Below are positions 2,067-29,091 of a stretch of 30,154 nt of DNA, piece by piece. The notes under the pieces were generated by a model that was not told the origin of the DNA, did not search any database, and saw only the letters and a list, made by a program, of their open reading frames with translations. Within the stretch, counting starts at the first letter, position 1. The number at the start of each line of letters is the position of its first letter. The position numbers were made by a program, and so were the translations under genes. The stretch is from positions 1 to 30,154 of the IMG/VR virus record IMGVR_UViG_3300042507_001596. One strand, written 5' to 3'. This stretch comes from a virus.

Positions 2067-4247
2067 ATGGAAATCGAGAACTTCGACGCATCAGCAGTCG
2101 TCAAAAACAAGCCGTGGTTAGACCGCGCGCTCGAAAACATTGCGCCGACGTGGGCGCTGCGTCGTCTTGAATCGCGCGTGCAGAAGCATCTGTTCGAGTA
2201 CAACGCCGCGCGCACGAACCGGCTCTACGCTCCGAAGCAGTACGGGCAACCTGCGGAGTCCACGCAGAACCAGCGCGACCGCGTGGTCATGATGTGGGAA
2301 GCGCGTGACCTCGTTGAGAACTTCCCCGAGGCTCGTGAAATCTCGCGCAAGTTTGGCAACTACTTGACGCCGCACGAGTACAGTCCGACGACCGGCGACC
2401 GCGCATACAATCAGACGATCAGCGAATACTTCCACCAGTGGTGCAAGACGTGCGACGTCACGAACCGGCACTCGTTCAAGAAGCTCGTGCAACTCGCCGC
2501 CGAGGAGCGCCCGGTCGATGGCGATTGCGGCTTCGTCATCCGACGCACGACCGACGGCCTCAAGCTCCAGCTCGTTCCGGCGACCCGCATCGGCAACCCG
2601 AACATGGCGGCGATTGATTCCGACAATTACTATCAGGGGATCATCACGAACGACTTCGGTCAGCCGGTCGCGTATCGGATCTTCCGCGTGGACCGGAATG
2701 GCGTTTACTTCGGAGCGGAGGACATTCCGGCAAACCAGTTCTGTCACTACTTCGATCCGTTCCGCGTTGACCAGTACCGAGGGATCACCGATCTGCACGC
2801 CGCGATCCAGACCGCGCGCATGCTCCACGACATTCTGCAGGCGGAGAAGGCTGGCGTTCGCTTCTCCTCTCAGCAGGCCGCGCTGATCTTTAACGAACGC
2901 GGGACGGCAAATCCGCGCAACCTCTTCCAGCCGAATCCGACGCTCGCGCTCCCGAGCGGGCAGCAGCAGAAGAACGAGCTGACCGAGGTCGGCATGATCC
3001 GATACTTCTCCAACAGCGACCGCGTCGAGGTCATGCCAGCGCGCCCGTCGCAGGCGTTTACCGGCTTCGTGCAGCATCTCATGCACGAGATCGCTCTCGG
3101 CGTCGGCGTTCCCGAGGGCGTCTTGTTCGGAACGCAGGACTACAAGGGGCCGAGCGTGCGCGCAGAGTTCGCCGCCGCTGATCGCGTGTTCGCGAAGCAT
3201 CAAGGCGTGCTAACCGACAAGGTGCTCGATCCAATCAAGGACGCCGTGATCCTCGACGCGATTGCGCGCAGCGAGATTCCGCCGCCGACGCTCCTCGAAG
3301 GCGAGACGATGGTGCAGGCTCTTCGTCGCGCGACCCGTGGCGAATGGCGATTCCCAGCGAAGCTCTCGATCGACGTCGGGCGCGAGTCTGCCGCGAACAT
3401 GAACGAGAACCGGCAGGGCGCAAAGTCTCTGCAAGAGATCGCAGCCGAGGAGGGCACGGACGCGTTCGCTCGTCTTGAGCAGATCGCAATCGAGGCCGGA
3501 TTCGTTAAGGAGCTTGCGGAGAAGTACGGCGTGCCGGAGACGGCCATCCGCCTGACGACGCAGTCGCTCCCGAGCACGCCGACCGCAGCCGCAGCCGCGG
3601 GCGATGCCGTAGGCAAGGCAGCAGCGGACGCGCAAGCCGCGAGCGTCATGCCGCAGACTGGCGGGCCGGAATCAGTCGGCGGGCAGGCTCCCGGCGAGGA
3701 GATCGTGCCCGGAAACGCGTTCGACGACTCTAAACTCATCACGATTAATCTTGAGACCGGCAGCTACATTCCGACGAACGCGATGGCAGACAACGCTCGC
3801 CGCGCGCTCGACGTGCGTGAGAAGAAGCCAGCCTCGCAGCGCGGCATGACCAGCGTCGGCATCGCCCGCGCCCGCGATCTGATCAACAAGCGCCCAATGT
3901 CCGAAGACACCGTGCGCCGGATGAAGGCTTTCTTCGATCGGCACGAGGTAGACAAGCAGGGCGAGACGTGGGACGAGCAAGGCAAGGGCTGGCAAGCGTG
4001 GAACGGGTGGGGTGGCGATGCGGGATACTCGTGGGCGACCGCCATCGTGGAGCGAATCAACAAGCAAAACTCCTCCGGTTCGCGCGATCTTTCCGCTGCC
4101 GAGATGAAGCACTCGTTTGCCGTCAGCGCGCCGCCAGAGGCAGAGGAGTGGCTTGAGGCCGTGCAAAAGTACCGGGCGAAGCAGATGAGCAGAATCGAAG
4201 CAGGCAAGCAATCGACCACGATTGACAGCGAAAACAAAACCTCATGA
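2067..4247 (+). CDS. Portal protein, lambda gpB type, with an extra C-terminal domain
   Basis: This 726-residue protein forms the dodecameric portal ring at the capsid vertex through which DNA passes. Residues about 1-470 match the lambda-type portal: [17 protein letters not shown] at the start, then RLYAPKQYG, a GDCGFVIRR core, a [20 protein letters not shown] clip/stem region, and [21 protein letters not shown]. An Ala-rich linker (about 500-545) follows. After it comes a segment at about 593-666 (bases about 3845-4066) with [26 protein letters not shown] and [10 protein letters not shown], which is not part of the classical portal fold. I have seen similar small motifs recalled from other phage head proteins but cannot name the family. 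The ATG sits behind an ACACACGCAC leader. The end overlaps the fibre gene by ATGA. Confidence 0.9.
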
Positions 4248-7200
4248 TCCACACGCAGGCACAGATCGACAACCTCATCGACCTCGCGATCATCCAGCGC
4301 GAGGAACTCAAGCGGCTCGTCGAGTCGCTTCCTGAATTGCGGGCGCATCTCTCGATTGAGATCGAGCGCAACCTGAACGAGATCGAGCCTGCGCTGCGCG
4401 AGGAACTGCAAGCGTTTCTTGTCTCGAAGGCGCAGGACGAGCACGCGAAGATCGGCAGCGACCTTGCGCGGACGATGTCGCAGCTCGCCGCGTCTCTCGA
4501 AAGCACGACAGCTGCACGCTACTCCGTGCTCATGTTAGAACGCGCCAAAAATGACGACTTGCTCGCGCAGGCTGAGCAGCGCATTGCGGAGGCTGCGTCC
4601 GCGCTCCCTAACGCGGTCAAGGGGATCGTGACCGAGGAACTTTCGCGCTTCCCTCGCGCTGGCGAAATCGACCGGCTCAGACGTGAATTTGCCGAGCCTC
4701 GCGGTCTGAATCCTCGCGGCCAGTGGCAGTCGGGCGTCACCTATCAGAAGCTGGATCTCGTTTCCTACACCGGCGACAGCTACGTCGCGAACGAAGAAAC
4801 GACCGAAAAGCCGTCGCGCAAGTCGCCAAAATGGACGCTTAACGCCTCCCGAGGAAACGCCGGGAGCGGTGACAACGTGGACCGCACCTCGCTCCTCGGA
4901 CCCGTCGAGAACGGTCAGGTGCTGATCGGCTCGAATGGCTCTTACGTCGCTGCGTACATAACCGCTGGTGCTGGCATCGATGTCACAACTGCGGCGGGCG
5001 TCATCCAGATTTCATCGGACGGAGGCGGGCTCTCTTTTCAGGGAACGTGGAACGCTTCCACAAATACGCCTGCGCTGGCGTCCAGCATCGGCACGAACGG
5101 GTATTACTACGTCGTCAGCGTCGCGGGATCGACGAACCTCAACGGCGTCACCGATTGGGCCGTCGGCGACTGGGCAATCTACAACGGAACGGCGTGGCAG
5201 AAGATCGACAACTCGGACACCGTCGCGAGCGTGTTCGGCAGGACCGGAGCCGTGGTCGCTACTGCGGGCGATTACACCGCATCACAGATCACGAACGTCG
5301 CGTCGGGCGGCATCGTCGCGGTTAACGTGCAAACTGCGATCAACGAACTCGACTCCGAGAAGATGGCGAAGGCGTCGAACCTCAGCGACCTCGCCAGCGT
5401 CACGACATCGCGCACGAATCTGGGTCTCGGATCTGCTGCCGTTCAGGCTACGACGTTCTTCCTGCAAGCGGCGAACAATCTCAGCGACGTCGCATCGGTG
5501 TCGCTTGCTCGCACGAATCTTAGCCTCGGGACGATTGCAACGCAGGCAGCGAGCAACGTCTCGATCACCGGCGGATCGATTACTGGCATCACCGATCTCG
5601 CGGTCGCGGACGGCGGAACCGGAGCCAGCACGGCTGCAAATGCTCGCGTCAATCTTCTGCCGAGCTACACAGCAAACGGCGGCAAGGTGCTCGCGGTCAA
5701 CATCGGCGCAACCGATACGGAGTGGATTACGGCAGCGGCAGGCAGCGTGACCAGCGTGGACCTAGCTTCCGGCACCGGGATCAGTGTCACGGGCGGACCA
5801 ATCACTTCTTCGGGGACCATCACGGTGACCAACACCGCGCCGGATCAGATTGTCTCGATCACTTCCGGCACGGGTATTTCAACCTCTGGAACCTATCCGA
5901 ATTTCACCGTCACGAACACTGCGCCGGATCAGACCGTCGTCATCACAGCCGGGAGCGGAATCAGCGTCACCGGGACTTACCCGGCTTTCACAATCGCAAG
6001 CACCGGAGGCGGCGGCAGCGTTACGAGTGTTGCAATCGACAGCGACGCAAACATCAGCGTCACCGGGTCTCCGATCACGACATCAGGCACGATCACGGTC
6101 GCGCTCGTAAATACCTCGGTCACGGCTGGCTCCTACGGGAGCAGCACGGCTGTCGGCACGTTTACGGTGGACGCGAAGGGCAGATTGACCGCAGCAGCGG
6201 ATGTCAGCATCAGTTACCCGGTGACTTCGGTGGCTGGCAGGACCGGCGTCATCACGCTCTCGACTGCGGACATCAGCGGGCTCGGGAATTCTGCAACGCT
6301 CAACGTCGGGACGACTGCGGGCACAGTCGCCGCTGGCGATGACTCGCGATTCAGCGACGCACGCACGCCTACCGGACCTGCTGGCGGCGATCTGACGGGC
6401 ACCTATCCGAACCCGAGCCTTACGGTTTCCGGCGTTTCTTCTGGTGGCTACGGCAGCGCGTCGAGTTCCGTCGTCGTCACGGTAGACGCAAAGGGCCGGA
6501 TCACTTCGATCACCGCGCCAAACATTCTGATCGCGCAGTCGCAGGTCACGAACCTGACGACCGATCTCGCGGCAAAGATTCCGGCGACGGAAAAGGGCGC
6601 GAACTCAGGCGTGGCGACTCTCGACAGCGGCGGCAAGATTCCGACGACTCAGCTCCCAGATTCGATCCTCGGGCAAGTCTCGTACCTCGGGACGTGGAAT
6701 GCGACGACCAACACGCCTACGCTTGCCGATCCTCCGGCGTCAACGACGCTCGGCGATTACTACATCGTCAGCACGGGCGGCACGTTCGCTTCGATCACCT
6801 TCGCGGTGGGCGACTGGATCATCTCGAACGGGTCCGATGGCTGGGCAAAGGTGGACAACACCGACGCCGTGGCATCTGTGTTCGGGCGCACGGGCACGAT
6901 CACCGCGACGAACGGCGATTACACGGCGAGCAACATCACGAACGTCCCAGCTGGTGATATCGTCGCGACCGAAGTGCAGGCCGCGATCAACGAGCTGGAC
7001 GGGGACAAGCTCGCGAAGGCGTCGAACCTTTCGGATCTCGTCTCGAATTCAACCGCTCGGACCAATCTCGGACTCGGCTCTGCCGCAACGCAGGCCGACA
7101 CCTACTTCCTACAGTCGGCGAATAACCTCTCCGATCTCGCGAGCGTAACGACGGCACGGAGCAATCTTGCGCTCGGAACAATCGCGACGCAGGACTCGTC

Positions 7201-8974
7201 CTCGGTCTCGATCACCGGCGGCAGCATCACGGGAATCACCGACCTTGCCGTGGCTGACGGTGGCACTGGCGCATCGACCGCGAGTGACGCACGAGTGAAC
7301 CTGCTCCCGAGCTACACGGCGAACGGCACGAAGATCCTTGCGCTGAACGCTGGAGCAACCGATGTAGAGTGGGTCGCGAAGCCAACGGGCACCGTCACTA
7401 GCGTCGATCTCTCGGCAGGTACGGGCATCAGCGTGACAGGTGGGCCGATCACGTCGTCCGGCAGCATCACGGTAACGAACACAGCGCCGGATCAAACGGT
7501 GGTGCTGACGGCTGGGACCGGCATCAGCGTGACCGGAACCTATCCGAGCTTCACGTTGACTAACTCCTCACCGTCGCTCGGTGGCGATGTCGTCGGTCCT
7601 GCGTCCTCGACCGACAACGCAATCGTGCGATTCGACAGCACGACTGGCAAGCTCGTGCAGAACTCCGGCGTGACCATTAGCGATGCAAATCTGCTGACCA
7701 CGACGGACCTCACAGTAAACGACAACACGACCCTCGGCAGCAGCAACTCGGACACGGTTGATTTCAAGGCCCGGGTGGCGGGCGACATCAATCCGTCGGT
7801 TGACAACACCTACGACCTCGGCGTGACGGGCCACGAGTGGCGCAACCTAAACATCGACGGCACAGCGAACATTGACTCGCTCGTTGCGGACACGGCGGAC
7901 ATCAACGGCGGGACGATTGACGCGACGGCCATCGGTGGCAGCACGGCGGCGGCGGGCGCGTTTACCACGCTCGGCAGCAGCAGCACAACGACGCTCAACG
8001 GAACGACGATTCCCGCAAGCTCGACGCTGTTGGTAAGTGGCGGTGCGCTCGGAACGCCGTCAAGCGGCACGCTGACGAACGCTACGGGCCTCCCGCTGTC
8101 CACTGGCGTCACGGGCAATTTGCCAGTCACCAATTTGAATTCGGGCACGAGCGCGTCTGCGGCTACTTTTTGGCGCGGCGATGGAGCATGGGCGACTCCT
8201 GCTGGTGGATTGACGTACGTGGTCAAGACCGCGAACTACACGACGCAAAATCTAGAGGGGGTGCTGGCCGACACTACTGCTGGTGCCTTTACCGTCACCC
8301 TGCCAGCGACCCCTGCAACCGGGAACCAGTTGGTGATTGCGGATTCCGGGGACACCTTTGGTACGAACAACCTCACAGTCGGGCGCAACGGCTCAACGAT
8401 TGAGGGAACGGCGGCGGATCTTGTTTTAGACATCAGCGGGGTGTCGGTGCAGTTCGTCTACAGCGGTAGCACGTGGAATGTCTATGCTCAGGTCGGCGGC
8501 AACGGCGGCACGGCGGTAACGCTGGATGCTGTTCAGACGATTACCAACAAGACCTTTACCACCGGGAATGCGTTCAACGGCACGGTTGGCGCGACGACTC
8601 CAGCAGCGGGGACATTCACGACCCTCGCGGATTCAATTGGCGACGTTCGACTCATTCCGCAAAACAGTCAGAGCACGGCTTACACCGCAGTCCTTACGGA
8701 CAGCGGCAAGCATCTGCTCCATCCGAGCGCGGACACGACTGCTCGGACGTTCACAATTCCGGCGAATGGATCTGTTGCGTATCCAATTGGGACGGCTCTG
8801 ACGTTCGTTAATCAGGCAAGCGCGGGCGTGATGACCATTGCTATCACGACCGACACGATGCGTCTGGCAGGCGCAGGCACGACTGGATCGCGCACGCTTG
8901 CGGCTAACGGCATTGCGACTTGCTTAAAGCTCACCGCGACCGAGTGGATTATCAGCGGCACCGGACTCACCTAA
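4244..8974 (+). CDS. Giant repetitive tail fibre / receptor-binding protein
   Basis: This 1576-residue protein is probably an adhesion fibre. Residues about 1-150 are Glu/Arg/Leu-rich and look like coiled coil ([20 protein letters not shown]). Residues about 155-202 look like a small carbohydrate-binding module of the CBM5/12 kind ([17 protein letters not shown]). The remainder is Ser/Thr/Gly/Ala/Val-rich, low in charge and free of transmembrane helices, with recurring fibre phrases such as [55 protein letters not shown] and TNKTFTTG. A block of about 300 residues occurs twice (267-585 and 816-1107). The C-terminal 470 residues contain shorter repeats of AAAGAFTTL type and a final strand-rich domain. 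The start overlaps the portal stop (ATGA). The function is inferred from composition and repeats. The position inside the head module is unusual. Confidence 0.85.
5042..5999 (+). repeat. Internal fibre duplication, copy 1
   Basis: This encodes the first copy of a module of about 318 residues that begins [10 protein letters not shown] and runs through [53 protein letters not shown] and GTYPAFTI. The same order of phrases recurs at 6689-7564. The two copies are clearly similar in protein but well diverged in DNA. Confidence 0.8.
6689..7564 (+). repeat. Internal fibre duplication, copy 2
   Basis: This encodes the second copy of the module, about 292 residues, beginning [10 protein letters not shown] and continuing through [53 protein letters not shown] and GTYPSFTL. 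The order matches copy 1 at 5042-5999, with short length differences. Confidence 0.8.
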
Positions 8975-8975
8975 C

Positions 8976-9653
8976 ATGGGCGCGATTCAACAGATTTTAT
9001 TGGGGATTGCTAGTCAGGCTCCAGATATTCTCTGGTGGAAATTTACAGACGGAAGCGGATCGACCGTGACCGCTGCCGTTGGTCCTAACGGGACAACCAA
9101 TGCTACATGGGGCACTACTCCGGCTGGAAAAGGACAACTCACTTTTAATGGTAGTTCACATTACCTGTATTCAGTTGCAAGCGTCGCATTTAATGTTCAG
9201 GTGGCTACAGTTTGCGCTAATGTTCGCTGGGACAGTTTTACAAACAACGATATGCTGATGCTAGAGACGACCGCCAACTCTAACGGTCAGCAAGGAGCGA
9301 TAATGGTAAATCCAAACGCGAGTAATTCGTCTAATGTGGATGTGGTTTTGCGTAGCAACAGAAACGAGGGAGGAACCCGACCGGCGGCTGGAGTTTACCG
9401 CCACTATGCGTTCGTTTTTGATAACTCTACCGCCGCAGGAGATGTAAAATGGTATCTCGATGGCATTGAGCAAAGCCTCACGATTCAGTCTAACACAAAA
9501 ACAGCGTCGGGGAATCTACTTACGGCAGTTCTGTATGTTATGAATCGCGGGGGTACCGGTTTGTTTGCTGGAGGTAGAGTCTCAGATTTTAGAATCTATG
9601 GCCGAGAACTAACCGCTGCCGAAATCCTCATCATAAAAAATAATCCGGCATAA
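8976..9653 (+). CDS. LamG/concanavalin-like domain protein, probable glycan-binding fibre accessory
   Basis: This 225-residue protein looks like a single LamG/concanavalin A-like jelly-roll domain, a fold that usually binds sugars. The tell-tale pattern is an early WWKFTDGSG, a central FNGSSHYLY strand, VYRHYAFVFDNST followed by WYLDGIEQSL, and a final GGRVSDFRIYGRELTAAEI, the standard LamG closing strand. No signal peptide or membrane segment is visible. The start ATG follows the fibre stop by one base with a CACCTAAC leader. Base composition is distinct: three 60-base lines I counted (9001, 9121, 9421) average 45% G+C, against 65% in a sample line at 12361. This suggests recent acquisition. 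It probably works with the flanking fibres in adsorption. Confidence 0.75.
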   Translation: MGAIQQILLGIASQAPDILWWKFTDGSGSTVTAAVGPNGTTNATWGTTPAGKGQLTFNGSSHYLYSVASVAFNVQVATVCANVRWDSFTNNDMLMLETTANSNGQQGAIMVNPNASNSSNVDVVLRSNRNEGGTRPAAGVYRHYAFVFDNSTAAGDVKWYLDGIEQSLTIQSNTKTASGNLLTAVLYVMNRGGTGLFAGGRVSDFRIYGRELTAAEILIIKNNPA

Positions 9654-9679
9654 AGACCCTATAGGCGACACCAACTAAC

Positions 9680-10942
9680 ATGGCCACACTCTCCTCAATC
9701 ATCACGCCGAGCAACATCACGACTGCGACGAACACGCAGACGCTGACGAATAAGACGCTGACTGGTGCCGTTATGGACGGTACGCTGGGCGCGACTACCC
9801 CGAGCACGGTGGCTGCGACTACGCTCTCCGCTTCAGGCGCGTCCACGTTCCCAAACTCTGCTCCGAGCGTAATCGGCGGTCTCGGTTTCCGCAATCGCGT
9901 GATCAACGGCGATATGCGGATTGACCAGAGGAACGAGGGGGCAAGCGTTTCGGTGTCCACTGGGGGACAGCCGTATGGTGTTGATAGGTGGAACGGACAG
10001 GGAACAGCAGCGGCAGGCGTATTCTCTCTGCAACGAAGCACGAGCACACCACCAGCAGGCTTCACCAATTTTACTCGAATCACGACTACGACAGCCGATG
10101 CGTCTCCGGCTGCGGGTTCGGTCTATAATTTCCGGCACCAAATAGAGGGGAACAATTTGCAAGATTTTCAGTTTGGGGCAGCAACCGCGAAGACCGTCAC
10201 GATTTCTTTCTGGGTAAGGTCGTCTTTAACGGGGACATTCTCGGGTGCATTTGCTAATAATGCGTTTAACCGTGGATACCCATTTACCTACGCCATCTCC
10301 GTTGCGAACACGTGGGAGCAAAAGTCTATTGCCATTGCCGGAGATACAACCGGGACGTGGCTTACTGACAACGGCATCGGTTTGCGGGTATATTTTGACC
10401 TAGGCTCCGGCTCAAACTTTCGCGGGACCGCCGGAGCGTGGGCAGCTTCCGGCCTTATCGGCGCTACTTCTGCTGTTCGCGTTATCTCGACGGTCTCCGC
10501 AACCTTCGATCTCACCGGCGTCCAGCTTGAAGTCGGCAACGCCGCGACCGAGTTTGAGCGCAGGCCGTTCGGGCAGGAGCTTGCGCTGTGCCAGCGGTAT
10601 TACGCCACCAGCATCGAGACCGGAAAGATTGTAACTGATTTTGCTACAATCAATGCCAATGGATTAGGGGGTATCGTAGGCTTTTCAACCGCCGCAAATG
10701 GAGATTTGTTCGTGCCAATTAGGTTTCCGGTCAGCATGAGGAGCAACCCAACCCTGACGGTCTATAGCGGCGCAAACAGAACGGCGGGTTCAGTCCGCGA
10801 CATGACTACCGGGACCGATGTGACCGGATTTAGCAACGGCGGCGCGACTTCAAATAATCAGGGAATTTCCTATATCACGGGCAGCACATTGACCGCAAAT
10901 CGAGCCTACGGATTCCACTACGTCGCGTCCGCCGAATTCTGA
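9680..10942 (+). CDS. Tail fibre / tail-spike-like protein with C-terminal carbohydrate-binding-like domain
   Basis: This 420-residue protein starts with a short fibre-like repeat (TNKTLTGAVMDGTLGATTPS) also seen in the C-terminal part of the giant fibre. It then continues with a domain common in phage fibres: FRNRVINGDMRIDQRN, then YGVDRWNGQG, a strand-rich jelly-roll part (TVTISFWVRSSLTGTFSGAF), LTGVQLEVGNAATEFERRPF and GQELALCQRYY. The final 110 residues form another strand-rich domain. I recognise this layout from many environmental phage fibres, where it is thought to bind sugars. The ATG follows an ACCAACTAAC leader without a Shine-Dalgarno sequence. Base composition is intermediate between the LamG gene and the structural genes. 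Confidence 0.8.
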   Translation: MATLSSIITPSNITTATNTQTLTNKTLTGAVMDGTLGATTPSTVAATTLSASGASTFPNSAPSVIGGLGFRNRVINGDMRIDQRNEGASVSVSTGGQPYGVDRWNGQGTAAAGVFSLQRSTSTPPAGFTNFTRITTTTADASPAAGSVYNFRHQIEGNNLQDFQFGAATAKTVTISFWVRSSLTGTFSGAFANNAFNRGYPFTYAISVANTWEQKSIAIAGDTTGTWLTDNGIGLRVYFDLGSGSNFRGTAGAWAASGLIGATSAVRVISTVSATFDLTGVQLEVGNAATEFERRPFGQELALCQRYYATSIETGKIVTDFATINANGLGGIVGFSTAANGDLFVPIRFPVSMRSNPTLTVYSGANRTAGSVRDMTTGTDVTGFSNGGATSNNQGISYITGSTLTANRAYGFHYVASAEF

Positions 10943-14548: not shown

Positions 14549-14578
14549 CCTCACGCCTTTACCGGCGTGGGGCTTTTT
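14549..14578 (+). terminator. Rho-independent terminator after the major capsid gene
   Basis: A 9-bp stem (CCTCACGCC at 14549-14557 with GGCGTGGGG at 14564-14572, one G-T wobble) with a 6-base loop is followed by C and a run of five T (14574-14578). It lies 26 bases after the capsid stop, so it would end the head transcript and set the glycosyltransferase genes apart. Confidence 0.88.
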
Positions 14579-14632
14579 GCTTTGACCCTCCCGCGCGGAT
14601 CTATTGACACGGATACGCAACACACAAACACA

Positions 14633-16015
14633 ATGACCATTTCACTCTGCGTTATTTGCGGAAACGAGGAGCATCACATTCGCTCTCTGCTGGATTCTTT
14701 CAAAGGCTCATTCGATCAGCTCTCTCTCGTCCGCGCCATCGGCACGACACAGCCGGACAAGACTGAGCTAATCGCTCGCCAGTGGTGCTCAGAGCACGGC
14801 AAGGCGTTCGTTTTCAGCGAGTATCTCAACGGCGTGACCGCTCGGGCATGGAAGCACGTAGATTCGTTCGCACGGGCACGCAATCAGGCTTTCGCGCAGG
14901 CTACCGAGGCGTGGCTCGTTTGGGCCGACTGCGACGATCAGCTCGCGGAATCGGATGGCCTACGCGAGAGGCTCGCGGCGCTTCCGATTGACGTGTTGAT
15001 GGTGCGCTGCCCTTACGATGTTCGAGGCACCGGCAAGAAGCTACCGCGCGAACGCTTCATCCGTCGCAGCGCGTTTCAGGAGGGACGGATCTGGCACCAC
15101 GATGTGCACGAGAATCTCCTACTGCTGCCGAACGACCGGCACGAGGAATGGGCGACTCCGGTCTGGCACCATCTGCCGCAGGCGATCAAGCAGGACAATC
15201 GCAAGCGGAACCTCGCGATCCTCGGGAGGAGCGTGAACGAGTCTGCGACGCAGTACTTTTATATTCATCAGGAGCATTACTGCGCGGGGAATAAGTCGGC
15301 GGCGGAGCAGTTTGGGAAGATCGCGATCTCGTTCCCGAATCTCGACGACTCCTTCCGGTACGAGGTCTTGCTGAATCTAGCGCGGATCTCGGTCAGTCGC
15401 CGCGAGTCTCTACAGCTTGCAATGTCGGCGCACGGCGTGTTCCCGTGGTGCCGGGAGGCAATCGCCTCAATTATCATGCTCGCCTTCGAGCGCAACGACG
15501 GCAAGCGGGCGAGCTGGTGGGCGTCGCACATGCTCAAGCTGCCGGAGCCTGCGCCCGGTGACCGCCCGTGGACGCATGAGGCGAAGTGGTACGGCTGGGC
15601 AGGGCACGACCTAGCGGCTCGCGCGTTTCGTTTGGCCGGACAGACTGCAGACGCTGACGCTCTCCAGCTCGTTTACCACAAGCACACGCTCCCGGCTATT
15701 CTGCTGAACCAAAAGACGCTCGGCAACTCGACGAAGTCCGTCTCGTTTCGCGACGCATGGCTCGCGACGGCTAGCAGACCGGAGATCGTCGAGCACCGAT
15801 TCGTGATCGACCCAAACGACGCCGAAACCGTTGCGATGTCGAAGCAGTTCCTGCACGAACTCGGCGCCGCGCGAGGACCAGACCGAGCGATGATCGTGCT
15901 CAACGTCGAGGACGGCATGATCCCGCCGCACGGCTGGGACGAGCGCGTGCTGGCGTCCGGCGAAATCCTGATCGACGCGACGAACATCGAGAAGATTCTC
16001 GGAGGTGCGAAGTGA
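14633..16015 (+). CDS. GT2-type glycosyltransferase with helical C-terminal region
   Basis: This protein of about 460 residues begins with the classic GT-A/GT2 opening (MTISLCVICGNEEHHIRSLL) and has an acidic nucleotide-sugar/metal motif DCDD at residues 99-102 (VWADCDDQ). Between them is the usual AFVFSEYLN and FARARNQAF region. Residues about 200-340 are helical and may form TPR-like repeats, as in the SunS-like GT2-TPR family. The last 100 residues are unfamiliar. It probably transfers a sugar to a phage virion protein or a host surface component; the sequence does not show which. ATG 14633 is preferred over an upstream in-frame ATG at 14567, which lies inside the terminator. The start has an AACACACAAACACA leader. 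It overlaps the next gene by GTGA. Confidence 0.8.
   Translation: MTISLCVICGNEEHHIRSLLDSFKGSFDQLSLVRAIGTTQPDKTELIARQWCSEHGKAFVFSEYLNGVTARAWKHVDSFARARNQAFAQATEAWLVWADCDDQLAESDGLRERLAALPIDVLMVRCPYDVRGTGKKLPRERFIRRSAFQEGRIWHHDVHENLLLLPNDRHEEWATPVWHHLPQAIKQDNRKRNLAILGRSVNESATQYFYIHQEHYCAGNKSAAEQFGKIAISFPNLDDSFRYEVLLNLARISVSRRESLQLAMSAHGVFPWCREAIASIIMLAFERNDGKRASWWASHMLKLPEPAPGDRPWTHEAKWYGWAGHDLAARAFRLAGQTADADALQLVYHKHTLPAILLNQKTLGNSTKSVSFRDAWLATASRPEIVEHRFVIDPNDAETVAMSKQFLHELGAARGPDRAMIVLNVEDGMIPPHGWDERVLASGEILIDATNIEKILGGAK
16001..16005 (+). promoter_or_regulatory. Shine-Dalgarno sequence for the second glycosyltransferase
   Basis: GGAGG lies six bases before the GTG at 16012, inside the end of the first glycosyltransferase gene. 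It supports the GTG start and contrasts with the A/C-rich leaders lacking a Shine-Dalgarno sequence found at many other starts in the window. Confidence 0.7.
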
Positions 16016-16656
16016 GCGCGCCTCCAGCAATCGTCATCTGCACGACGAACGCGCGGTGCCTCGCGGTCATGAAAGCGTCAATCGCGGCCTACGTCCCGCG
16101 GCAGGTCGAGGTGATAATCTTCCGCAACGTCGGCGGCAGCTTCGGCGAAGCGTACAACTTCGGAGTTCGGAACGCTTTCATAACGCATTCTGAGGTCGTC
16201 GTCTGCAACGATGACATTGTGTTTACGCCGACGACGTGGGAGACGCTCCTCGCTGACGTCGCGCACCTGCGGGCAAACATCGCGGATCTCGGCTGGGTCG
16301 CGACCCGGTCAGACTTCGCACGCGGTGGGCAAAACATCCGTATCGGTCGCGGTCAGATCAACTTCCTGCGCTACGAGTCAGAGCAGCACATCCTACAGAC
16401 TGACATCATCGCGCCAATCTGCGCGTGGATTCACCGGGACGCGTGGATCGACTTCCCGCCGATCAACTGGTTTTCGGACGACGTGCAGTGCCTCGAAATG
16501 GGGCGGCAGCACTTCATCTCTCGCGCCTACGTTCACCACGTCGGAAGCCAGACGTGCGGCATGGACGCGAAGAAGTGCATGGACGATGCGGAGCCGTGGC
16601 TGCGCGCAAATCGACCGGAGCTGCACGCCCGGTGGTATTTGACGAATCGCGCTTAA
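16012..16656 (+). CDS. Second glycosyltransferase-like protein (GT-A fold)
   Basis: This 214-residue protein starts GTG within the stop of the previous gene (GTGA overlap), behind GGAGG. The N-terminus AIVICTTNARCLAVMKASI and the motif VVVCNDDIVFTP (acidic pair at 67-68) match the GT-A opening strand and D-x-D-type site. PPINWFSDDVQCLEMG (residues about 153-168) fits the acceptor-side D-D-x-E region of GT2-like enzymes. It lacks a membrane segment and is short, so it resembles a minimal catalytic domain. Together with the upstream enzyme it looks like a two-enzyme sugar-transfer cassette. Substrate and acceptor are unknown. Confidence 0.7.
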   Translation: MSAPPAIVICTTNARCLAVMKASIAAYVPRQVEVIIFRNVGGSFGEAYNFGVRNAFITHSEVVVCNDDIVFTPTTWETLLADVAHLRANIADLGWVATRSDFARGGQNIRIGRGQINFLRYESEQHILQTDIIAPICAWIHRDAWIDFPPINWFSDDVQCLEMGRQHFISRAYVHHVGSQTCGMDAKKCMDDAEPWLRANRPELHARWYLTNRA

Positions 16657-16980: not shown

Positions 16981-17760
16981 ATGGTCTCGATTCAAACAGA
17001 CGTTAGCAAACTTGAGTTCGCGCTCGCTCGTCTCGCGCTGGCGGCGAAGGTCGGGCTCGGTCCTGTCATCAAAGAGGAGGGTCGATATCTGGTGAACCTG
17101 TTTATTAAATTTACGCCGCCGAAGTCGCGCAAGGAGGGCGAAGGCGCAGTGCAGAGCGACATGGCAAATCTCGCTATTCCTTTGAGCTATCCCGAACTGG
17201 AAGCAAAGGCTGGGAAGAAGGGATTCTACAGGTCATTGGCGAAGTACGTCCGCAATCGCGAGACCGAGAAGCTCAAGCTCCTTTTCCAGAATCCAAACTT
17301 CAAGTTTTTCCACGGTCGGCAGATGCTCGCGAACGTGGACGAGATCCGACGCGCTCACCGGCAGCGGCAGAATCGTCGCGGGAGGATTCCAAAGGACACG
17401 AACATGGCCGCGTATTCGTCCGACATGAAGGAGTTCTCGAAGGAAATCCGTGGCCGCGTCGGCTGGACGGCGTCTGGCTGGATTCCTGCGGCAAAAGCTA
17501 CAGGCGCACCGTACAAGAAATTCTCGGATCGCTTCGGCGGCAAGGCTGGCGTGGTCACATCAAGCTTCGTCGGCGAAAATCCGTTTATCGTCGCGGTCAA
17601 TCGCAACGTAAAAATCCCGAACTATCAGCGCATGATTGACGCGGCGGTCGCATCGCGCACTCGCACAACTCTACTCAAGATCGACCGCGTGCTCGCGAAC
17701 CGAGCCGTAAATCTCGGCTTCACACGAGTCGGAGGCAAATCACTACCCATCGCAGCATGA
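16981..17760 (+). CDS. Minor tail / head-tail protein, gpZ or HK97-gp10-like
   Basis: This 259-residue basic protein lies between the connector and the tail terminator, the place of lambda gpZ and HK97 gp10. The opening VSKLEFALARLALAAKVGLGPVIKEEGRYL followed by FIKFTPP is the common start of that family: a long helix, then a Thr-Pro-Pro turn. The middle is rich in Lys and Arg (RRAHRQRQNRRGRIPK). The final part, NYQRMIDAAVASRTRTTLLK, is another helix. Such proteins help the completed tail join the filled head. It ends in an ATGA overlap with the terminator gene. Confidence 0.7.
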   Translation: MVSIQTDVSKLEFALARLALAAKVGLGPVIKEEGRYLVNLFIKFTPPKSRKEGEGAVQSDMANLAIPLSYPELEAKAGKKGFYRSLAKYVRNRETEKLKLLFQNPNFKFFHGRQMLANVDEIRRAHRQRQNRRGRIPKDTNMAAYSSDMKEFSKEIRGRVGWTASGWIPAAKATGAPYKKFSDRFGGKAGVVTSSFVGENPFIVAVNRNVKIPNYQRMIDAAVASRTRTTLLKIDRVLANRAVNLGFTRVGGKSLPIAA

Positions 17761-18188
17761 GCACACGCACACAAATCAGAACCAATACCGCTACCGCGCT
17801 CACCTCCGCGCTCGTGGTCCCGACGGCAAACATCCTGCGCGGGCGCAACAACACCATCGCCAGCGTCAGCTTCCCGTCGGCTGCAGTATACGCCGTCACC
17901 GAGCAGATCGAGGTCCGCACGCTCGGGCCCAGCAACCGAACGCAGTACCGACAGCTCCAGCTCATGGTCGATTACTTCGTCGCCGAGAGCGGCACCTACC
18001 TTATCGACGACCTTTTTGACACCGGCTCGGCTGCGGTCGAGGCGGCGGTGCTCGCGGACGTGACGCTCTCCGGCGCATGCCGCGACCTGCATTTGACGAA
18101 TGTGGAATATATGATCGAACCAGACGAGGACCGGCGCTGGGGAACGGCTCGTCACACTTTCAACTGTATCTATCTAACCAACGACTAA
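17757..18188 (+). CDS. Tail terminator protein (gpU-like position)
   Basis: This 143-residue protein starts inside the stop of the gpZ-like gene (ATGA). It begins with a helix (TRTQIRTNTATALTS), then alternating strands (IEVRTLGPSNRTQYRQLQLMVDYFV), a helix with DDLFDTGSAAVEAAVLAD, and a closing strand HTFNCIYLT. The helix-strand order and the position just before the tail tube gene match lambda gpU-type terminators, which cap the tube when it reaches its full length. Sequence similarity by eye is modest, so the call leans on order. Confidence 0.7.
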   Translation: MSTRTQIRTNTATALTSALVVPTANILRGRNNTIASVSFPSAAVYAVTEQIEVRTLGPSNRTQYRQLQLMVDYFVAESGTYLIDDLFDTGSAAVEAAVLADVTLSGACRDLHLTNVEYMIEPDEDRRWGTARHTFNCIYLTND

Positions 18189-18189
18189 T

Positions 18190-18576
18190 ATGGCAACTTA
18201 TCTGGGCCGGGAGGGGCTCGTCAAAATTTCCTCCACCACCATCGGCGAGTTGAGAAACTACACTTTGACCCACACCTCCGACACCGTCGAGGACAGCGTG
18301 ATCGGCGACACCTACCGCACGCGCAAAGCGTCGATGAAGTCGTGGAGCGCGACGGCTGATCTGTTCTGGGATGAGGGCGACGCGGGTCAAATCCTGATCA
18401 CCATTGGCTCGACCGTGACCCTGAACCTTTATCCCGAGGGCGCTGCGGCGTCTGACACCTACTACAGCGGCTCGGCTATCGTCACGCAGTTTAATCCCAC
18501 CGCGTCCTATGACGGCCTTGTCGAAGCCTCGGTCGCGTTCGAGGGTAACGGCGTGCTCTCGACTCTGACGGTCTAA
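18190..18576 (+). CDS. Major tail tube protein
   Basis: This 128-residue, strand-rich protein has the look of a siphovirus tube subunit. It opens with YLGREGLVKISSTTIGELRNYTL, then DTVEDSVIGDTYRTRKASMKSWSATADLFWD, the typical tube pattern in which a loop with D-x-V-x-D is followed by W-x-x-x-A/G-D-x. It ends GLVEASVAFEGNGVLS, the usual G-x-V-x-x-S/T-V-x-F-x-G-x-G strand. It lies directly before the frameshifted chaperone genes and the tape measure gene, which is the standard order. No Ig-like C-terminal domain is present. Confidence 0.85.
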   Translation: MATYLGREGLVKISSTTIGELRNYTLTHTSDTVEDSVIGDTYRTRKASMKSWSATADLFWDEGDAGQILITIGSTVTLNLYPEGAAASDTYYSGSAIVTQFNPTASYDGLVEASVAFEGNGVLSTLTV

Positions 18577-18601: not shown

Positions 18602-18925
18602 ATGGAAGCCATTGATCTCGTCCGCGAACACTTCAACAGCCTCGGCACGAAACGAATCGAGGTGCCCGAGTGGAAGCTCGTGATCTACTCCGCGCCGATG
18701 ACCCTCGCCGAGAAGAATCGAGTCTACAAGAAGAGCGTCGCAAGCGACATGGACCTGCTCGTCGACATCCTGATCATGAAGGCGACCGACGAGGCTGGAA
18801 AGAAATTGTTCACCATCGAGCACCGTCCAACGCTGCTCAACAAGGCGGACAGCAACGTCGTGGCACGGGTCGCGAACGAGATCATCAGCTCGGACTCGCC
18901 GAAAGTTGACGAGCTAAAAAACTGA
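18602..18925 (+). CDS. Tail assembly chaperone, short form (G-like)
   Basis: This 107-residue protein lies between tail tube and tape measure, where lambda encodes gpG. It starts MEAIDLVREHFNS and includes RIEVPEWKLVIYSAPMTLAEKNRVYK, a pattern common to G-like chaperones, in which an early Val-Pro-Glu-Trp strand is followed by a helix. G-type proteins coat the tape measure during tail assembly and are not in the virion. The last sense codons are CTA AAA AAC before TGA, which form a slippery heptamer (see 18916-18960). The ATG follows a long A/C leader (CAAAAAACACAACACACAC). Confidence 0.85.
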   Translation: MEAIDLVREHFNSLGTKRIEVPEWKLVIYSAPMTLAEKNRVYKKSVASDMDLLVDILIMKATDEAGKKLFTIEHRPTLLNKADSNVVARVANEIISSDSPKVDELKN

Positions 18926-19083
18926 TCGACGGTGACGACGGAGCCGACCTCGTCGCCGTCTACGCAATCGCGGAACGTCTCGGCAAATTCGCTCACGAAG
19001 TCCTCGCGATGCCAGCCGACGAAATGCACGGCTGGCTCGCTTACCTGAACCACAAATCTCGACTGCAAAAAGCTCATGGCTGA
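18602..19083 (+). CDS. Tail assembly chaperone, frameshifted long form (GT-like)
   Basis: A -1 shift at the A_AAA_AAC heptamer (18916-18922) joins the 107 codons of the short form to a further 53 codons in the overlapping frame (18922-19080, stop TGA at 19081-19083), giving about 160 residues. The extension reads LIDGDDGADLVAVYAIAERL and continues LAMPADEMHGWLAYLNHKSR. That is a gpT-type ending: a helix bearing M-P-x-x-E followed by W-L-A-Y. The extension has no start codon of its own near its beginning, so it is reachable only by frameshift. In lambda the ratio of G to GT sets efficient tail assembly, and the same role is likely here. The extension overlaps the tape measure start by 8 bases. 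Confidence 0.85.
18916..18960 (+). promoter_or_regulatory. Programmed -1 ribosomal frameshift site
   Basis: The heptamer A_AAA_AAC (18916-18922) is in the correct phase (CTA AAA AAC). A 5-base spacer follows, then a stem of 11 base pairs: GACGGTGACGA (18928-18938) with TCGTCGCCGTC (18950-18960), including one G-U pair and an 11-base loop. The zero-frame stop TGA (18923-18925) sits in the spacer. Confidence 0.88.
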
Positions 19084-25065: not shown

Positions 25066-25166
25066 CGCGGCTGAAATCACATCGAGCCTCTGTGCAAGAG
25101 GAAATCGATATGATCTTTGACGACGATGAATTCGACTACCCGGAGTTTCTTCGGCTGATCACATGA
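25062..25166 (+). CDS. Micro-ORF of 34 codons, translationally coupled on both sides
   Basis: This short frame starts ATG at 25062 inside the stop of the J-like gene (ATGA) and ends TGA at 25164-25166 inside the start of the metallophosphoesterase (ATGA). It encodes MTRLKSHRASVQEEIDMIFD followed by an acidic stretch (DDEFDYPEFLRLIT). The basic start and acidic end suggest a small folded or partner-binding peptide, but I do not recognise it. The double overlap is the main reason to believe it is translated, at least as a coupling device that carries ribosomes across the gap. Function unknown. Confidence 0.6.
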   Translation: MTRLKSHRASVQEEIDMIFDDDEFDYPEFLRLIT

Positions 25167-26038
25167 CCACAAAAAACAAGCAGTGGAGTTTCGAGGAAGT
25201 CTCCCGCAACGTCCACCGCTTCGCGGTCGATCTGCGTCACGTCGGCGACGAGCAGTACTTCCTTTTGCAGAGCGACGTGCACTGGGACAATCCGCATTGC
25301 GACCGCGCGATGCTCAAGCGGCATCTCGATCTTGCACTCCAGCGCAACGCGCCGGTGATTGATGTCGGCGACTTCTTCTGCGCGATGCAGGGCAAGTTCG
25401 ACAAGCGTTCAAATAAGAATGACATTCGCGCCGAGCACCAGAAGGGCGACTACCTCGACGCGCTGGTAAAAACGGCAGCGAGTTACCTCGAACCCTACGC
25501 GCCGATCCTGACCATGCGAGGGTGGGGCAATCACGAGACCGCGATGCTCAAGAATCACGAGACTGATCTGACCGAGCGGCTCGTCGAGCGATTGCGCGCG
25601 AAGGGCGCGGCGAACATTCGGCACGGAGGATTCTCCGGCTTCATCCGATTCAGCGTCACCCTGCGCGGGACGCGAAACGACGTGCTCACCTATCACTACC
25701 ACCACGGCTACGGCGGCGGCGGACCTGTGACTCGCGGCGTCATCCAAACGAATCGCATGGCGGTGTATCTCGCTGACGCGGACATCGTGCACACGGGTCA
25801 CACACACGACGCGTGGCAAGTATCCATTTCTCGAATACGCCTAAACATTTCAAACGTCGTGGAGCACACGAGGCAAGTCCACGTTCGCACCGCCGGGTAC
25901 AAAGAGGAGCACGGCGATGGATACGGCGGCTGGCACATCGAGCGAGGCGGACCACCAAAGCCGGTCGGCGCTGCGTGGCTGAGGCTCTATCATGTCACGG
26001 GCGGCAAGGTTGATTTTGAGATCACCGAGGCACGGTGA
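25163..26038 (+). CDS. Calcineurin-like metallophosphoesterase
   Basis: This 291-residue protein has all the main metal-binding blocks of the calcineurin-like phosphoesterase superfamily in order: D-V-H at 38-40 (LLQSDVHWD), G-D at 69-70 (DVGDFF), G-N-H-E at 122-125, a His-rich HYHHG at 178-182, and G-H-T-H at 212-215. The core therefore looks catalytically intact. Members cleave phosphomonoesters, phosphodiesters, nucleotides or DNA ends, and the sequence alone does not tell which. It has no signal peptide or membrane segment, so it acts in the cytoplasm or as a virion component. It directly follows the tail-tip gene through the coupled micro-ORF, an unusual place for such an enzyme. It closes the structural block. 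Confidence 0.85.
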   Translation: MTTKNKQWSFEEVSRNVHRFAVDLRHVGDEQYFLLQSDVHWDNPHCDRAMLKRHLDLALQRNAPVIDVGDFFCAMQGKFDKRSNKNDIRAEHQKGDYLDALVKTAASYLEPYAPILTMRGWGNHETAMLKNHETDLTERLVERLRAKGAANIRHGGFSGFIRFSVTLRGTRNDVLTYHYHHGYGGGGPVTRGVIQTNRMAVYLADADIVHTGHTHDAWQVSISRIRLNISNVVEHTRQVHVRTAGYKEEHGDGYGGWHIERGGPPKPVGAAWLRLYHVTGGKVDFEITEAR

Positions 26039-28419: not shown

Positions 28420-29091
28420 ATGAGTATTGAAAACGTCAAAACAGAGAACATCAATCCACTCGCGCCGACCACGGTCGATGCGACGCAACCAAAAGGACAG
28501 ATCGCGCTCGGAGCGCAGGGAGTTCAACTCGCCTCAATCGACGAGGCTTTCCGCTTCGCCCGTGCCGTAGTCGCTTCCGGCTTCGCGCCGAAGGGGATGG
28601 AAAAACCCGAGAGTGTCATGATCGCGATTCAACTCGGCATGGAGCTGGGTCTTACGCCGATGGCTGCGCTGCAGAACACGGCAGTCATCAACGGGCGCCC
28701 GGCGATCTACGGTGACGCCGCGCTCGCGCTCGTTAGAGCCAGCGGTCTGCTCGACGCTTATGTCGAGAAAGAGATCGGCGAGCCGGGTAAGGATTCGCAC
28801 GGCTACGAGGTCACCGTGACCCGCAAGGGCAGCGCAGCATCCTCGGAGACGTTCACCGTCGCCGACGCTAAGCTCGCGAAGCTCTGGGGCAAGCCGGGAC
28901 CGTGGACGGATTATCCGCGCCGGATGCTGAAGTTCCGCGCGCGCGGGTTCATCCTGAGAGATCAATTCGGGGATGTCCTGAAGGGCCTGCGCACGGTCGA
29001 GGAAGCGCGCGACATCGCGCCCGAGATTAACGTCACGCTCTCGGAGAAACTCGCGTTCGGCCTTAGCGACGCGGTCGGAGGTGGAGCATGA
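28420..29091 (+). CDS. RecT-like phage recombination protein
   Basis: This 223-residue protein matches a phage family often annotated as RecT-like single-strand annealing protein: FRFARAVVASGFAPKGM, MIAIQLGMELGLTPMAALQN, TAVINGRPAIYGDAALALV, KLWGKPGPWTDYPRRMLKFR and ARGFILRDQFGDVLKGL. Such proteins anneal complementary strands and work with a 5'-3' exonuclease. The RecE-like exonuclease gene begins 740 bases further on, which supports the pairing. The start ATG follows a long A/C leader (ACACACACACAGAGCTAAC). It overlaps the next gene by ATGA. I am confident of the family pattern but less so of biochemical annealing, since classic RecT has a somewhat different consensus. Confidence 0.72.
   Translation: MSIENVKTENINPLAPTTVDATQPKGQIALGAQGVQLASIDEAFRFARAVVASGFAPKGMEKPESVMIAIQLGMELGLTPMAALQNTAVINGRPAIYGDAALALVRASGLLDAYVEKEIGEPGKDSHGYEVTVTRKGSAASSETFTVADAKLAKLWGKPGPWTDYPRRMLKFRARGFILRDQFGDVLKGLRTVEEARDIAPEINVTLSEKLAFGLSDAVGGGA

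Follow-up and report, generated by a model that had tools for sequence, protein, structure and literature searches.

Results

A short tail chaperone gene is followed by an open -1 frame

The window analysed here is the whole stretch of 30,154 nucleotides of the viral record IMGVR_UViG_3300042507_001596 in IMG/VR. An ORF at 18602-18925 on its plus strand encodes a protein of 107 aa and ends with the codons CTA AAA AAC TGA (CTA at 18914, AAA at 18917, AAC at 18920 and TGA at 18923). Direct reading of these codons places the heptamer A_AAA_AAC (18916-18922) in exact -1 phase relative to the ORF and abutting its stop, as the initial annotation had proposed. The open stretch of the -1 frame starts at 18910, and the extension comprises 53 sense codons (18922-19080) followed by TGA (19081-19083), running beyond the tape measure start at 19076. 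The first ordinary start in this frame is the ATG at 19009, and the extension thus has no start near its beginning. The length of the extension and its missing start had both been described in the initial annotation, all coordinates of which proved right. The features of the region are listed in Table 1.

Table 1. Features of the tail chaperone region and its neighbours in the window
Feature	Position	Strand	Evidence
Tail terminator	17757..18188	+	PHROG 4204, E 8.8e-14
Major tail (tube) protein	18190..18576	+	PHROG 1407, E 2.1e-17
Short tail assembly chaperone (G-like)	18602..18925	+	ORF; PHROG 16513 and 344; AlphaFold2 fold near 2OB9
Slippery heptamer A_AAA_AAC	18916..18922	+	-1 phase, next to stop; same place in 157/159 distinct relatives
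-1 frame extension (T-like), 53 codons and TGA	18922..19083	+	PHROG 16513; dN/dS ~0.20; overlaps tape measure start
0-frame stop TGA	18923..18925	+	Directly 3' of heptamer; TAA, TGA or TAG in relatives
5' arm of probable stimulatory stem	18928..18938	+	Pairing, covariation counts, synonymous-recoding control
3' arm of probable stimulatory stem	18950..18960	+	Pairing, covariation counts, synonymous-recoding control
Tape measure protein, 426 aa	19076..20356	+	PHROG 1538, E 2.5e-15

The 33 listed genes (9,477 codons) hold 13 in-phase XXXYYYZ sites, and only the one at 18916-18922 touches a gene stop and opens a long extension. Given the codon usage of the window, Leu-Lys-Asn would be spelled NNA AAA AAC with a chance of ~1.2%. 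A second in-phase A_AAA_AAC is present at 25171-25177, in codons 3-5 of the gene 25163-26038, which is DNA repair exonuclease-like by its PHROG match; the -1 frame is open for 61 codons there. This second heptamer is most likely a chance decoy, and because it is present, the heptamer by itself is not evidence of frameshifting.

Profiles and fold place the short protein among tail assembly chaperones

Profile searches matched the short protein to PHROG 16513 and PHROG 344 (tail assembly chaperone), with E values of 4.5e-7 and 6.8e-7, respectively. In addition, PHROG 16513 was matched in order by the short protein (positions 8-108) and then by the extension (positions 120-158; E = 4.5e-4); since one profile matches both, known PHROG 16513 proteins join the two parts. 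When the short protein was modelled with AlphaFold2 (mean pLDDT 82), its nearest fold was that of 2OB9, the HK97 tail assembly chaperone (Foldseek probability 1.00, E = 0.0026), and VIA-align aligned 99 residues of the two at 12% identity with a Z score of 9.4, the best fold match by a margin. Searches with the short protein and its relatives against Pfam and NCBIfam pointed to no useful family, a sequence search of the PDB returned nothing meaningful, and scanning the window for Rfam families and tRNAs gave no hit.

By the PHROG matches of its neighbours, the chaperone gene has the tail tube gene on one side and the tape measure gene on the other. The tape measure protein has just 426 aa, which for a phage of this type predicts a short tail. 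Further upstream, two glycosyltransferase-2-like genes (14567-16656) lie between the major capsid and tail genes; against Pfam PF00535 the first scored above the cut-off and the second just below it. Long fibre-like genes (1576 aa and 420 aa) occupy 4244-10942, with a lectin-like Laminin_G_3 gene (8976-9653) among them. They lie between the portal and capsid genes, an unusual location for tail fibre genes. A RecT-like single-strand annealing protein is encoded at 28420-29091.

The heptamer is conserved at the stop codon

A first scan of viral contigs yielded 70 loci, and further scans together with annotated phages brought the set to 159 distinct relatives, most of which come from separate metagenome assemblies. 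The initial annotation had proposed heptamer conservation in related phages as a check, and the last base of a slippery heptamer indeed directly preceded the stop in 157 of the 159 (A_AAA_AAC in 134, A_AAA_AAG in 18 and G_GGA_AAC in 5), counts that are not independent events, the relatives being akin to one another. In the remaining two, A_AAA_AAC lies 3 nt upstream of the stop (Sinorhizobium phage phi3LM21, L074) or 39 nt upstream (L071); the latter was the one exception among the first-scan loci that were read to their end. The heptamer type switches between lineages. No nucleotide-level relative and no major-capsid relative was detected in the phage collection. Two scans of sequenced bacterial and archaeal genomes found no relative either, and therefore no host or prophage can be named.

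The 0-frame stop is less constant, being TAA in 117 of the 159 relatives, TGA in 27 and TAG in 15. This variation bears on termination followed by reinitiation, in which the extension would be a separate protein made from a start that overlaps the stop. Such a start is at hand in the window, where CTG, a rare start codon, overlaps the TGA at 18922-18924. However, the corresponding codon is not CTG in relatives with TAA or TAG, which argues against reinitiation at the CTG of the window, no ordinary start precedes the ATG at 19009, and reinitiation leaves the conserved heptamer unexplained. We consider this route highly improbable.

Codon choice at the site was compared with that elsewhere in the G genes for the 70 relatives with A6-7 and C (69 with six A's and one with seven). 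NNA AAA AAC preceded the stop in 70/70, while elsewhere in the G genes Leu codons ended in A in 9% of cases, Lys was AAA in 29% and Asn was AAC in 77%. All three degenerate codon positions are fixed at the site. By codon logic, replacing AAC with AAT before TAA, TAG or TGA would alter the protein in neither frame, yet this change was never seen at the site, and the last heptamer base C is invariant in both the A6 and the A9 groups.

The extension itself is also under constraint: its dN/dS in the -1 frame was 0.20, compared with 0.10 for G, indicating purifying selection. A decayed or accidental open frame that arose by frameshift mutation or sequencing error had to be considered, a homopolymer run being a usual place for such errors. 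That explanation is refuted by the conservation seen among the relatives, since the same arrangement recurs in 159 distinct relatives, mostly from separate metagenome assemblies, with purifying selection in the -1 frame; of the alternatives weighed here, we give it the least credence.

The downstream stem is a lineage-specific feature by sequence comparison

A spacer of 5 nt separates the heptamer from a stem in which the 5' arm GACGGTGACGA pairs with the 3' arm TCGTCGCCGTC. Both spacer and stem had been described in the initial annotation, and the pairing was confirmed: 11 pairs follow one another without interruption, including one U-G. The 61 nt 3' of the heptamer fold with an MFE of -25.6 kcal/mol, a value only modestly below that of shuffled sequences (z = -1.5); by energy, the stem is unexceptional in this GC-rich DNA. 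Because the signal was weak by shuffling alone and the region is also coding, a synonymous-recoding control was adopted, in which the native fold of the first 40 nt after the heptamer had to be at least as good as the best 5% of synonymous recodings. The stem of the window stands out only against synonymous recoding (2%, first 38 nt) and by conservation.

Among 25 aligned variants of the window's clade, 89.5% of cells were paired and four pairs were changed on both sides, and the covariation score of these variants was higher than that of any of the 500 shuffles or any slid control. Only near kin retain all 11 pairs, and the pair 18936-18952 is broken in 15 of the 25. Across the wider set, the recoding test was passed by 25/33 A6 variants, 13/13 A_AAA_AAG variants and 2/5 G_GGA_AAC variants, and by 0/36 of the A9 marine variants. 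Some covariation, of the kind that the initial annotation had suggested looking for, is seen in the window's clade, most of which also folds better than synonymous recoding would predict; the excess folding does not extend to the A9 marine variants or to three of the five G_GGA_AAC variants. Taken together, these sequence comparisons indicate that the stem is a lineage-specific feature and the heptamer the constant part.

A marine lineage carries nine A's at the homologous place

In 64 distinct loci (HTVC202P, L072; HTVC026P, L073; and 62 among L102-L181), an invariant GTA AAA AAA AAC TAA is found at the homologous place. The annotation of HTVC202P and HTVC026P lists the short gene, and the long chaperone is absent from it. 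Synonymous recoding detected no selected stem in the 36 variants of this lineage tested. Furthermore, the nine-A run is followed by C in 64/64, compared with AAC at 16% of the Asn codons elsewhere in those genes. This invariant C points to ribosomes in the marine lineage too.

These loci also bear on transcriptional slippage as a rival explanation. RNA polymerase would add an A within the A run, so that part of the mRNA would carry the extension in frame. The run is homopolymeric, RNA polymerase slips efficiently in vivo on nine A's or T's (PMC5009743), and 64 marine relatives have nine A's, with a selected stem in none of the 36 tested. On the other hand, the site in the window has just six A's, short of the approximately nine A's or T's of Thermus dnaX-type transcriptional slippage, and the G_GGA_AAC relatives have no such run. 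The selection on the stem fits ribosomes, and slippage does not require the final C that is invariant in the A6 and A9 groups. For the window, we therefore regard polymerase slippage as very unlikely, if slightly less so than reinitiation; these two and error are each poorly supported there.

In the nine-A marine lineage, polymerase slippage might operate. One chaperone family could then have two routes to the frame change: a ribosomal heptamer with a selected stem in the window and the A_AAA_AAG clades, and, in the Pelagibacter-phage-like marine clade, which would have lost the stem or never had it, an invariant run of nine A's from which the long form would arise partly or wholly by RNA-polymerase slippage. 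We put this forward tentatively, as an idea that is rather unlikely to hold. A parallel is offered by dnaX, whose two products arise in one way in some bacteria and in another way in others.

Discussion

The observed sites with their phase and conservation, together with the family and fold of the chaperone and the selection on the extension, lead us to infer that the short and long tail chaperones of this phage very probably arise by programmed -1 ribosomal frameshifting of the G-GT kind known from lambda and HK97, the reading given in the initial annotation. The phase, spacer and stem, the PHROG 16513 profile spanning both frames, the HK97-like fold, the gene position, a heptamer abutting the stop in all but two of the 159 relatives, the purifying selection and the joined two-frame CDS deposited for the related Rhodobacter phage RcRhea all support this reading; that the stem is not kept in every lineage and that no significant sequence similarity to lambda G or T was detected weigh against it. 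Most ribosomes would halt at the TGA at 18923 and release the short chaperone of 107 aa. In a minority, the stem at 18928-18960 would cause a pause while the heptamer occupies the P and A sites, and these ribosomes would slip back one base and continue in the -1 frame to give a fusion of 160 aa. If lambda is a guide, the short form may coat the tape measure protein, and the long form may recruit the tail tube protein through its T part.

The ratio of the two products is important in lambda, where it is about 30:1 and where the tube protein is bound by the T part (PMC5009743). A further point against the frameshift reading is that in E. coli A_AAA_AAC is far less shift-prone than A_AAA_AAG (PMC5009743).

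These results supply the long chaperone that the annotation of this phage group lacked. The IMG/VR record, which has no close match in the phage collection, is a newly found case of the known G/GT arrangement, and the established picture of G/GT frameshifting is unchanged. The 159 relatives, with three interchangeable heptamers that nearly always abut the stop and with stems present or absent by lineage, form a natural series well suited to studying what determines the ratio of G to GT.

Comparison with known systems

The HK97 tail assembly chaperone, the best fold match of the short protein despite an identity of only 12% in the structural alignment, has a frameshift that is listed as experimentally confirmed (PMC5313236). 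The locus resembles lambda G/GT in its gene order, in the -1 shift near the end of G and in the extension that overlaps the tape measure start. It differs from lambda in the heptamer, as the initial annotation had noted: lambda uses G_GGA_AAG, has its G stop further downstream and has a T frame annotated with 144 codons, whereas the window has A_AAA_AAC at the stop and 53 codons. Profile comparison by hhalign with the single lambda gpG and gpT sequences gave probabilities of 0.2 and 2.6, nothing significant; the description of the extension as gpT-like holds for position and general pattern.

Rhodobacter phage RcRhea has a homologous G (29% identity) and extension, deposited as a joined two-frame CDS, and its heptamer is G_GGA_AAC rather than the A_AAA_AAC of the window. 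The heptamer of the window is in use elsewhere: A_AAA_AAC lies immediately adjacent to the stop in gp12/gp13 of Acinetobacter phage Loki (PMC5313236), and it serves the tail chaperone frameshifts of phiCbK gp93/94 (PMC3556154) and haloarchaeal HCTV-2 (PMC5009743) and possibly occurs at the chaperone gene of Dragolir (PMC6003738). phiCbK and HCTV-2 belong to other phage groups, and their likeness to the window, like that of Loki, concerns heptamer use. The G/GT tail chaperone frameshift has long been known, and A_AAA_AAC at this gene, even beside the stop, is already published.
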